Assembly: GCA_012719535.1 (NCBI GenBank)
Contig: JAAYAC010000107.1
Span: 1-57,358, forward strand
Source of the DNA: Syntrophomonadaceae bacterium
GTDB lineage: Bacteria; Bacillota; Syntrophomonadia; Syntrophomonadales; Syntrophothermaceae
Length of the DNA: 57,358 nucleotides
Reading direction: 5' to 3'
The notes beneath the pieces are model-generated. The model made no database searches. It saw only the letters and a list, made by a program, of their open reading frames with translations, and had not been told where the DNA came from. Positions within the stretch are counted from its first letter, which is position 1. Each line of letters begins with the position of its first letter. Made by a program: the position numbers and the translations under genes. Positions 5,848-18,967 of the stretch are shown here, in pieces.

Positions 5848-5880
5848 AAGCATGCAGTTCTTGAACTGCATGCTTTTTTG
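5848..5880 (+). terminator. Intrinsic terminator after hbd
   Basis: AAGCATGCAGTT (5848-5859) and AACTGCATGCTT (5864-5875) form a perfect 12-base stem with a 4-base loop, running into a T tract (5874-5879). It ends the hbd transcript and isolates coaD. Confidence 0.9.
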
Positions 5881-14217: not shown

Positions 14218-14246
14218 TTGACAGGGAACAGAACAAGGCTTACAAT
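14218..14246 (+). promoter_or_regulatory. Near-consensus sigma-A promoter of the ylxM-ffh operon
   Basis: TTGACA (14218-14223), a 17-base spacer and TACAAT (14241-14246) make an almost perfect housekeeping promoter. Transcription should begin near 14253, inside the palindrome at 14252-14273, and about 36 bases before the GTG of ylxM. Confidence 0.85.
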
Positions 14247-14251
14247 CCTAT

Positions 14252-14273
14252 TGTAAAGTACTTGTACTTTACA
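14252..14273. promoter_or_regulatory. Perfect 22-base palindrome at the start point of the ylxM promoter (candidate operator)
   Basis: TGTAAAGTAC (14252-14261) and its exact complement GTACTTTACA (14264-14273) flank TT. It covers the predicted transcription start, a classic position for a repressor site. As RNA it could also form a 5' hairpin with a CTTG loop. It does not match LexA, Fur, CodY, TnrA, BirA or CIRCE sites known to me. Confidence 0.6.
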
Positions 14274-14288
14274 CATGGAGGCAAGATT

Positions 14289-14642
14289 GTGCTGGAAAAA
14301 GTGGAACGGATGGTTTGGCTGCTGGATTTTTATGGACCGTTATTAACCGAACGGCAGCGGCGCATAATGCAGTTGCACTACGAAAACGACTGGTCCCTGG
14401 GGGAAATTGCCGGAGAAATGCAGGTTACCAGACAGGCAGTCCACGATATATTGCGCAGGGCCGAAAAGTCCCTGGAACAGTATGAGGACCGTCTGGGACT
14501 GGTGGAGAAGTTCAGGCTCGACCGCAGACGGATCGCGGAGGCTTACGGTTTGCTCAAGGAACTCAGAACCGGTTACCACGAAGGTAAGGCCAACCGGGTG
14601 TTGCAGCTTTTGGAAGAGGTACTGGCGACGCAAGGCGCGTAA
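14289..14642 (+). CDS. ylxM: YlxM family protein (SRP-associated, sigma-70 region 4-like helix-turn-helix)
   Basis: Small helical protein always found beside ffh in Firmicutes; it binds or modulates the signal recognition particle in streptococci and Bacillus. The sequence shows DFYGPLLTERQRRIMQLHYE, then DWSLGEIAGEM and VTRQAVHDILRRAEKSLEQY, a helix-turn-helix resembling sigma-70 region 4. The start is GTG 14289, 7 bases from GGAGG, giving MLEKVERMVWLLDFYG and 117 residues, matching the family length; longer in-frame starts would run through the promoter. The stop is 12 bases before ffh. Confidence 0.9.
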   Translation: MLEKVERMVWLLDFYGPLLTERQRRIMQLHYENDWSLGEIAGEMQVTRQAVHDILRRAEKSLEQYEDRLGLVEKFRLDRRRIAEAYGLLKELRTGYHEGKANRVLQLLEEVLATQGA

Positions 14643-14654
14643 AGGAGAGGGATT

Positions 14655-15995
14655 ATGGTTTTTGAAGGCCTGTCAGAACGATTGCAGGAAACCTTTCGCA
14701 AATTAAGGGGCAAAGGCAAACTTAGCGAAGAAGATGTAAACCAGGCCATGCGGGAGGTAAGGCTGGCCTTACTGGAAGCTGACGTCAACTATAAGATAGT
14801 CAAGGACTTCATAGCCCGGGTGAAGGAACGGGCAATAGGGCAGGAGGTGCTGCAAAGCCTGACTCCCGGCCAGCAGGTGGTCAAGATAGTATATGAAGAA
14901 TTGACCCAGTTGATGGGTGGGGACCAGACCAGATTGACCCTGGCCCCGAAGCCACCCACTATTGTCATGATGGTAGGCCTGCAGGGGGCGGGTAAAACCA
15001 CCACCTGTGCCAAGCTGGCGAGAGTGCTTCAATCCCAAGGAAGGAGACCCTTGCTGGTGGCGGCTGACATCTACCGACCGGCCGCAATCAAGCAGCTACA
15101 GGTTTTAGGCGAGAAGGTCAATTGCCCGGTTTTTTCCATGGGACAGGAGGATCCGGTCAACATTGCCCGTGCGTCCCTTGAATTTGCGCGATCGCATAAC
15201 CGCGACATGATTATTCTCGACACCGCCGGCCGGTTGCATATTAACGAAGAACTGATGAATGAATTGAAAAACATCAAGCAAACCCTTAGTCCTCATGAAA
15301 TATTGCTGGTGGTAGATGCTATGACCGGTCAGGATGCAGTTAATGTTGCCCAGTCGTTTAACGAGCAACTGGGGTTAACTGGGGTCATCATCACCAAGCT
15401 TGACGGGGACACCCGGGGCGGGGCTGCGCTTTCGGTGAAGGCGGTGGCCAACTGCCCCATCAAGTTTGCCGGGATGGGTGAGAAACTGGAGGACCTGGAA
15501 CCGTTTCATCCCGACCGGATGGCTTCCCGGATCCTGGGTATGGGCGATATTCTCAGCCTGGTGGAAAAGGCCCAGGCAAGCATTGATGAAAAAAAAGCCC
15601 GGGAAATGGAGAAGAAGATTCGCCAGCAGGAGTTTACTCTGGAGGATTTCCTGGAGCAGCTTCAGCGGGTACGCTCGATGGGGCCACTGGATGAAATACT
15701 TGCCATGATTCCCGGTTTTGGCAGTATAAAGCAGTTGAAGGGATTAAAGAGCGAACTCGACGATAAAGAGGTTGCCCACATCGAGGCAATCATCAGGTCT
15801 ATGACCCCGCAGGAGCGTATGGATCCGTCCGTGCTTAACGGAAGCCGAAAGAAGCGCATTGCACGGGGAAGCGGGACCCGGGTACAGGATGTGAATCGCT
15901 TGATCAAGCAATTTGACGAGTCACGCAAGCTGATGAAACAGTTCGCCGACCTGGGGGCCAAAAAAGGCAAAAAGGGCCTCAGGCTCCCCTTCTAA
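14655..15995 (+). CDS. ffh: Signal recognition particle protein Ffh (SRP54)
   Basis: GTPase that binds SRP RNA and signal sequences and delivers nascent membrane proteins to FtsY. N domain 1-90; GTPase G1 GLQGAGKTTTCAKLA starting near residue 107; DTAGRLHINEEL near 189; G4 TKLDGDTRGGAALS near 247; the methionine-rich M domain covers about 300-446, with the RNA-binding segment GSGTRVQDVNRLIKQF near the end. 446 residues is the normal length. ATG 14655 follows AAAGGAGAGG. Co-transcribed with ylxM and rpsP. Confidence 0.97.
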   Translation: MVFEGLSERLQETFRKLRGKGKLSEEDVNQAMREVRLALLEADVNYKIVKDFIARVKERAIGQEVLQSLTPGQQVVKIVYEELTQLMGGDQTRLTLAPKPPTIVMMVGLQGAGKTTTCAKLARVLQSQGRRPLLVAADIYRPAAIKQLQVLGEKVNCPVFSMGQEDPVNIARASLEFARSHNRDMIILDTAGRLHINEELMNELKNIKQTLSPHEILLVVDAMTGQDAVNVAQSFNEQLGLTGVIITKLDGDTRGGAALSVKAVANCPIKFAGMGEKLEDLEPFHPDRMASRILGMGDILSLVEKAQASIDEKKAREMEKKIRQQEFTLEDFLEQLQRVRSMGPLDEILAMIPGFGSIKQLKGLKSELDDKEVAHIEAIIRSMTPQERMDPSVLNGSRKKRIARGSGTRVQDVNRLIKQFDESRKLMKQFADLGAKKGKKGLRLPF

Positions 15996-16027
15996 TACAA
16001 GTTTTGGCTCAGAGGAGGTGAAAGTTG

Positions 16028-16300
16028 GTGGCAACCAAGATCAGGCTCAAGAGAATAGGGGCGAAGAAAAATCCATTTTACCGTGTGGTGGTGGCAGACG
16101 CAAGGTCTCCCCGGGATGGGCGCTTTATTGAAGAGATAGGTTACTATGATCCGAGCACCAGCCCGGCCACGGTTAAGCTCGACGAGGACAAGGCTCTGCA
16201 GTGGTTAGCCAATGGAGCCAGGCCTACCGAGACGGCGAGGTCGCTGTTGAAGCAAGCAGGTGTGATGGCCAAATACCACGAAGCCCGGAAAACAAGGTAA
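16028..16300 (+). CDS. rpsP: 30S ribosomal protein S16
   Basis: Small-subunit protein needed for 30S assembly. The sequence [19 protein letters not shown], followed by [22 protein letters not shown], is unmistakable S16; 90 residues is usual. GTG 16028 matches the family N-terminus and lies 9 bases after AGGAGG (16013-16018). A TTG one codon earlier (16025) is also acceptable. It follows ffh by about 30 bases within the same operon. Confidence 0.96.
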
Positions 16301-18581: not shown

Positions 18582-18941
18582 GTGCAAGACATGATCAGGG
18601 CAATTGAAGAAGAGCAAATGAAAAAGGATATTCCGGATTTCAAACCCGGGGACACAGTGAAGGTCCATGTCAAGGTTGTGGAGGGTGGCCGGGAAAGAAT
18701 CCAGGTTTTCGAAGGAACTGTTATCCGTAAAAGAGGCGGGGGATTAAGCCAAACCTTCACCGTTAGGAGAATCTCCTACGGGGTGGCCGTGGAGAGAACC
18801 TTCCCTCTCCATTCGCCCAGGGTAAGCAAGATAGAAGTAACCAGAAAAGGTAAGGTCCGCAGAGCCAGGTTGTATTACTTACGTGAAAGGGTCGGTAAAA
18901 AGGCCAAGGTTAAAGAGAGAAGAGACTATATCAAGCGTTAA
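18582..18941 (+). CDS. rplS: 50S ribosomal protein L19
   Basis: Large-subunit protein at the 30S-50S interface. Typical segments are [40 protein letters not shown] and [19 protein letters not shown], ending with [10 protein letters not shown]. 119 residues is normal. GTG 18582 lies 8 bases after AAGGAGG (18567-18573). It is the last gene of the ffh-trmD group and is closed by a strong terminator. Confidence 0.97.
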
Positions 18942-18967
18942 AGACTGGTTTAAACCAGTCTTTTTTT
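18940..18967 (+). terminator. Intrinsic terminator after rplS
   Basis: A perfect inverted repeat, AAAGACTGGTTT followed directly by AAACCAGTCTTT, and then a run of seven T. It overlaps the last base or two of the rplS stop region and ends the translation operon. Confidence 0.93.

Follow-up and report, generated by a model that had tools for sequence, protein, structure and literature searches.

A face-to-face pair of −35-like words at the ylxM-ffh promoter of Bacillota and its probable use by YlxM as an autogenous operator

The ylxM-ffh promoter and its inverted repeat

The window analyzed here is a stretch of 57,358 nucleotides of Syntrophomonadaceae bacterium DNA (contig JAAYAC010000107.1 of assembly GCA_012719535.1), and the genes of interest all lie on its plus strand. 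The gene ylxM (14,289 to 14,642, with a GTG start at 14,289 and a Shine-Dalgarno sequence, GGAGG, at 14,277 to 14,281) encodes a 117-amino-acid UPF0122 protein with a helix-turn-helix (HTH) resembling sigma region 4, and it is this protein that we propose as the binder of the operator described below. It is followed by an open reading frame for 446 amino acids (14,655 to 15,995) whose identity as ffh, the SRP GTPase, is given by sequence and gene order and which would be the second gene under the operator, and then, after a gap of 29 bp, by rpsP (16,025 to 16,300). The SRP operon is usually taken to be constitutive, and a near-consensus promoter can be read upstream of ylxM, with a −35 box TTGACA at 14,218 to 14,223 that is kept in 53 loci of the order and a −10 box TACAAT 17 bp further downstream at 14,241 to 14,246, both on the plus strand.

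Just 5 bp past this −10 box, over the predicted transcription start, lies the plus-strand inverted repeat TGTAAAGTACTTGTACTTTACA (14,252 to 14,273), which can be written as TGTAAAG-TACTTGTA-CTTTACA. Its left half-site (14,252 to 14,258) reads CTTTACA on the minus strand, a −35-like word, and its right half-site (14,267 to 14,273) reads CTTTACA on the plus strand. The promoter and the 5-bp gap had been noted in the original prediction and are confirmed on the sequence. The same prediction spoke of a perfect 22-base palindrome, which is slightly too strong a wording for an inverted repeat that is real and has two perfect 10-bp arms, TGTAAAGTAC and GTACTTTACA, with TT between them, leaving 20 of the 22 positions symmetric.

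As a mere palindrome, this element is unexceptional for the window, which contains longer perfect arms elsewhere. One inverted repeat that exceeds it in length, AAGCATGCAGTTC at 5,848 to 5,875, has perfect 13-bp arms around a 2-base center, and a perfect 24-bp palindrome, AAAGACTGGTTTAAACCAGTCTTT, is found at the end of rplS (18,940 to 18,963), where it is probably the operon terminator. What raises the ylxM palindrome above chance is therefore its conservation across the phylum rather than its symmetry in the window. A search of the genome for repeat copies, as had been suggested, found the 20-mer core of the palindrome only once with up to three mismatches allowed. We also considered the half-sites as a second or divergent promoter and ruled this out, since, by eye, neither half-site in the window has a −10-like hexamer at 17 bp, whether the left one is read on the minus strand or the right one on the plus strand.

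Conservation of the site and its association with ylxM

Of the 63 class genomes, 54 have YlxM by protein similarity; one of the 54 (G050) was left out, its YlxM match starting at a contig edge with no upstream sequence. GTAAAG-N8-CTTTAC or a close form of it stands directly after the −10 box in 53 of 53 upstream regions of the order and class, with CTTGAC or CTTGTC as the right half in a few class loci. The exact pattern occurs in 51 of the 63 class genomes, mostly as a single copy and at ylxM. In the phylum at large, YlxM was found in 365 of 398 sampled genomes. Upstream regions were added from 60 loci fetched by place, 24 loci from the phylum search (4 of them repeats of order loci), and 80 named loci. 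Of 260 loci with at least 100 nt of upstream sequence, removal of repeats, judged by the last 60 nt, and of locus L001 left 209 regions, and removal of a further 11 that had been fetched by the motif itself left 198, all obtained by protein similarity. The class supplied 51 of these, the rest of the phylum 80 (spread over 56 other families), and the named loci 67.

Conservation upstream of ylxM in relatives was the point on which the original prediction had been made to depend, and it is found throughout: TGTNAAG-N8-CTTNACA, a pattern with 12 fixed letters, can be located in all 198 distinct regions with 0 mismatches in 122, 1 in 54, 2 in 20, and 3 in 2, in a sample that leans toward the YlxM proteins nearest to that of the window and has some 200 YlxM-positive phylum genomes with weaker matches outside it. 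Among 1,980 dinucleotide shuffles of the same regions, the best matches peak at 4 to 5 mismatches and 2 or fewer are reached in only 27. The geometry is similarly constrained. When at most one mismatch is allowed, a spacing of 8 bp is seen in 187 of 209 regions (a count that includes the 11 loci fetched by the motif) and 7 bp in 21, any other spacing from 2 to 14 bp occurs in 0 to 3, and everted or direct arrangements of the half-sites appear in 0 to 5 of the 209.

Over 196 sites, the consensus has TGT(a)AAG on the left and CTTNACA on the right of an A/T-rich center; the base next to TGT(a)AAG is hardly ever A, the one before CTTNACA hardly ever T, and the inner AAG and CTT letters reach 99–100%. 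CTTNACA amounts to CTTGACA, the extended −35 word, with the third hexamer base left free, and the two free bases of a site are Watson-Crick complementary in 98 of 176 sites, compared with 70 expected by independence. The centers of the half-sites are 15 bp apart. Simple HTH dimers usually read half-sites centered 10 to 11 bp apart; the distance here is unusual for such a dimer and counts against YlxM as the binder.

The perfect consensus is found genome-wide in 263 of the 398 phylum genomes, and a reversed control pattern in 43. In the genome of the window, the ylxM site alone is perfect, and there are four one-mismatch matches compared with one for the reversed control; we accordingly dropped the idea of a wider regulon in this genome. 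A single perfect site at ylxM fits autoregulation. Two other genomes, G323 and G387 (loci L192 and L193), have five perfect sites each, far above all others, which may point to a broader regulon or to a further regulator that uses a palindrome of this kind.

For 33 phylum genomes there was no YlxM protein match; in 3 of them the family profile detected a member, 2 of these above the cut-off. An ffh gene was found in all 32 genomes searched for it (23 of these 33 and 9 class genomes). At the full-length ffh loci of 22 phylum genomes without a YlxM match, one of which (G107) has a weak PF04297 profile match on another contig, the operator is found at 2 or fewer mismatches in 0 of 22 within 229 nt, the best matches having 3 to 6; extending the search to 700 nt gives best matches of 2 to 5 mismatches, and the single match with 2 lies 698 nt away. 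The YlxM-less ffh regions have a higher median GC content than the ylxM regions (0.54 vs. 0.39), but all 19 YlxM-positive regions with a GC content of at least 0.5 carry the site with 2 or fewer mismatches. In G201, ffh stands behind an unrelated metabolic gene with neither ylxM nor the site, whereas relatives within its family have both. SRP RNA genes were considered as further targets and dropped, since the operator was found at 0 of 30 in 30 genomes, with 2 to 5 mismatches in the best match within 290 nt.

Placement on the promoter and a second site at rpsP

An automatic, consensus-based classification of promoter placement was applied to 196 loci. In about 154 of them, a TTGACA/TATAAT-like promoter is closely followed by the site, which covers the start site, and in about 27 the right half-site doubles as the −35 box, 16 to 18 bp upstream of a −10 box; of the remainder, 6 fit both placements and 9 are ambiguous. 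The start-site copies keep a nearly constant distance from the −10 box, with gaps of 5, 7, and 6 bp in 71, 31, and 24 of 160 (126 of 160 at 5 to 7 bp). Two N8 sites are present in 26 of 198 loci, 45 to 63 bp apart (mostly 50 to 53), one at the −35 box and the other at the start. Among 157 start-site loci, an inverted partner of the −35 box is found at a spacing of 7 in 21 and of 8 in 8, and only rarely elsewhere. The spacing-7 matches counted in 21 of the 209 regions mostly represent such an additional site on the −35 box, chiefly in Bacillales. Eleven of the 157 loci also have a left half-site that precedes the −35 box by 16 to 17 bp, and an extra half-site of the GTAAAG type is seen upstream of the −35 box in L016, L032, L047, and L050 to L053.

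Named loci with rpsP within reach numbered 77, and 34 of these have a site with 2 or fewer mismatches ahead of rpsP; record titles place 33 of the 34 in Bacillales genera. The 34th, L212, with 2 mismatches and a different position, may be a chance match, and the other 43 loci have 4 to 6 mismatches before rpsP. The Bacillales sites are mostly 54 to 66 nt upstream of the gene (one at 121), with TTTACA as the −35 box. In L171, L175, L222, L230, and other Bacillales, the second operator mostly reads TGTTAAGAAAAAACACTTTACA and sits in the ffh-rpsP gap on the −35 box of the rpsP promoter; unlike in Bacillales, the 29-bp ffh-rpsP gap of the window contains no operator copy. End-mapping in Bacillus subtilis has placed a start site, P2, just upstream of rpsP (PMC10100781), in the region where we predict the rpsP promoter. 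Growth-rate control of the rpsP-rimM-trmD-rplS operon is described in the same source, the available text of which names no DNA-binding regulator (PMC10100781).

YlxM as a candidate repressor of its own operon

The protein encoded at 14,289 is a member of the UPF0122 family by its score against PF04297 (91.4 bits against a curated cut-off of 22.7, E = 4.9e-26) and by its place directly before ffh. It independently matches Sigma70_r4 (E = 2e-10), a match that falls to E = 0.026 in the distant member at L187. The predicted model (pLDDT 96.3) finds the solved UPF0122 proteins 1xsv and 1s7o first and sigma region 4 structures after them, and it superimposes on region 4 of Taq sigmaA bound to −35 DNA (1ku7_A) with Z = 9.3 and an rmsd of 2.0 Å over 66 residues. 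The recognition helix could be parsed in 110 of the 198 proteins, the others being too short in the fetched stretch or outside the search pattern, and in nearly all 110 it reads (S/T)(R/K)Q(A/G/S)(V/I)(Y/H/F)D, mostly (S/T)RQAV(Y/H)D. As for covariation between this helix and base 4 of the site, the helix is near-invariant among the 110 proteins, and the half-site is likewise nearly fixed. The arginine of the helix and the residue after it may correspond to the sigma residues that read C and G of TTGAC, and a Q in place of E at the second of these residues would then fit the free third base of the hexamer.

Several relationships help to place such a protein. YlxM is known from earlier work as an accessory protein of SRP whose purpose is unclear, and the likeness of the window protein to this family lies in its membership, its position before ffh, and its match to 1xsv and 1s7o. 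With sigma region 4 on the −35 element (1ku7), it shares the HTH fold, and CTTNACA resembles CTTGACA, but YlxM stands alone without the other sigma regions and is proposed to read two inverted copies, 8 bp apart, with the third hexamer base free. The archaeal protein Tfx (1nr3), a DNA-binding protein that is small and free-standing, has an HTH stretch similar to that of YlxM, but the match is weak (E = 0.035), and we know of no link between Tfx and SRP. In Streptococcus mutans, YlxM is reported to bind Ffh and SRP RNA and has been described as an SRP component or accessory protein (PMC8546722). This documented role counts against an operator function of YlxM; our reading of the window adds a predicted operator role to it. 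In the literature searched, with most subscription papers outside its reach, we found no description of a YlxM operator or of a role for YlxM in transcription.

What is observed here comprises the site with its conservation and geometry, its association with ylxM-bearing genomes, the homology of YlxM to sigma region 4, and the target as given by gene order, and the features by which an autogenous pair may be recognized, a conserved operator at the regulator's own promoter, a fitting DNA-binding domain, and co-occurrence of the two, are each found. We think it probable that YlxM represses its own SRP operon from this inverted pair of −35-like elements, placed at the start site or on the −35 box. 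In this mechanism, the operator would consist of two CTTNACA words face to face across 8 mostly A/T base pairs, bound symmetrically by a YlxM dimer or pair, and YlxM in that place, whether at the start site or, in other lineages, on the −35 box, would block RNA polymerase and exert autogenous negative control. Of the ideas in the original prediction, a repressor operator, perhaps for YlxM autoregulation, draws support from the phylum-wide conservation of the site, its absence at ffh where there is no YlxM match, and a half-site that suits a sigma-region-4-like HTH, with binding and repression by YlxM themselves remaining predicted.

The half-site is equal to the −35 word read by sigma, and G323 and G387, with their five perfect sites each, hint at other users of the palindrome. 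Another DNA-binding protein might then act at the site, either an unlinked repressor or a sigma region 4 holding RNA polymerase on the inverted −35 copy, with YlxM a mere neighbor. We regard this as unlikely, given that the site follows ylxM through no fewer than 56 other families, is absent from ffh loci in genomes where YlxM was not found, and is at ylxM the sole perfect site in the genome of the window; sigma binding, moreover, does not require a second, inverted copy exactly 8 bp away. That YlxM binds the site but activates, or merely fine-tunes start-site use, seems quite improbable, since sites over +1 or the −35 box are expected to block polymerase and the gap of 5 to 7 bp after the −10 box in most start-site loci fits a start-site block. 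The ylxM promoter of B. subtilis, which would favor activation or fine-tuning, was chosen as a strong promoter, with no regulator annotated for it in the available text (PMC7042180), and given this strength any repression by YlxM in growing cells cannot be strong.

A 5' hairpin that protects the message or controls translation was the other suggestion of the original prediction, and it was considered because such a stem would open the transcript: the site begins near +1 in the window and in most loci, and it would fold in RNA (−19.8 kcal/mol for an 84-nt stretch). This fold is unremarkable, however, with a z-score of only −1.72 and 15 of 200 shuffles equally good. The roughly 27 copies over the −35 box lie upstream of the predicted start, which means that the site is not within the transcript in all members, and the fourth position of the stem is unpairable in 67 of 176 sites even when G-U pairs are counted, with mostly T opposite T at this position in the rpsP copies of Bacillales. 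The other letters are fixed rather than compensated, and the stem is not kept up by compensatory changes, with Watson-Crick pairs at the fourth position in 98 of 176 sites compared with 70 expected by independence. The −35-box copies and the unpairable fourth position argue for a DNA operator and led us to reject the hairpin, which we consider highly improbable.

Repression by YlxM might be relieved by titration, a speculative scheme suggested by the finding, reported in the available text of PMC8546722, that YlxM binds Ffh and SRP RNA. In this scheme, sufficient Ffh and SRP RNA would draw YlxM off the operator, and free YlxM would report a surplus over SRP. Such a scheme would resemble the autogenous control of ribosomal protein operons, in that an operon would be controlled by one of its own products, itself part of a ribonucleoprotein linked to translation. 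Some ribosomal proteins report their own surplus and control their operons in this way, but they mostly act on their own mRNA, whereas the control site at ylxM is DNA at the promoter. More broadly, YlxM might be an autorepressor derived from sigma region 4, ancestral to much of Bacillota and reading face-to-face −35 elements, that serves as a sensor of SRP stoichiometry: YlxM not engaged by Ffh and SRP RNA would shut off ylxM-ffh and, in Bacillales, rpsP-rimM-trmD-rplS by way of the second operator, so that protein targeting would be tied to the supply of ribosomes. We offer this larger picture tentatively and regard it as possible but doubtful.

An operator kept across much of the phylum gives YlxM a candidate DNA-related function and a defined candidate binding site, and it shows how the DNA-reading domain of sigma could turn into a repressor once two −35 words are paired. 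For Bacillales, the same operator is a candidate for control of the rpsP-rimM-trmD-rplS operon. If autorepression by YlxM is true, the cell could restrain its own protein-targeting machinery.
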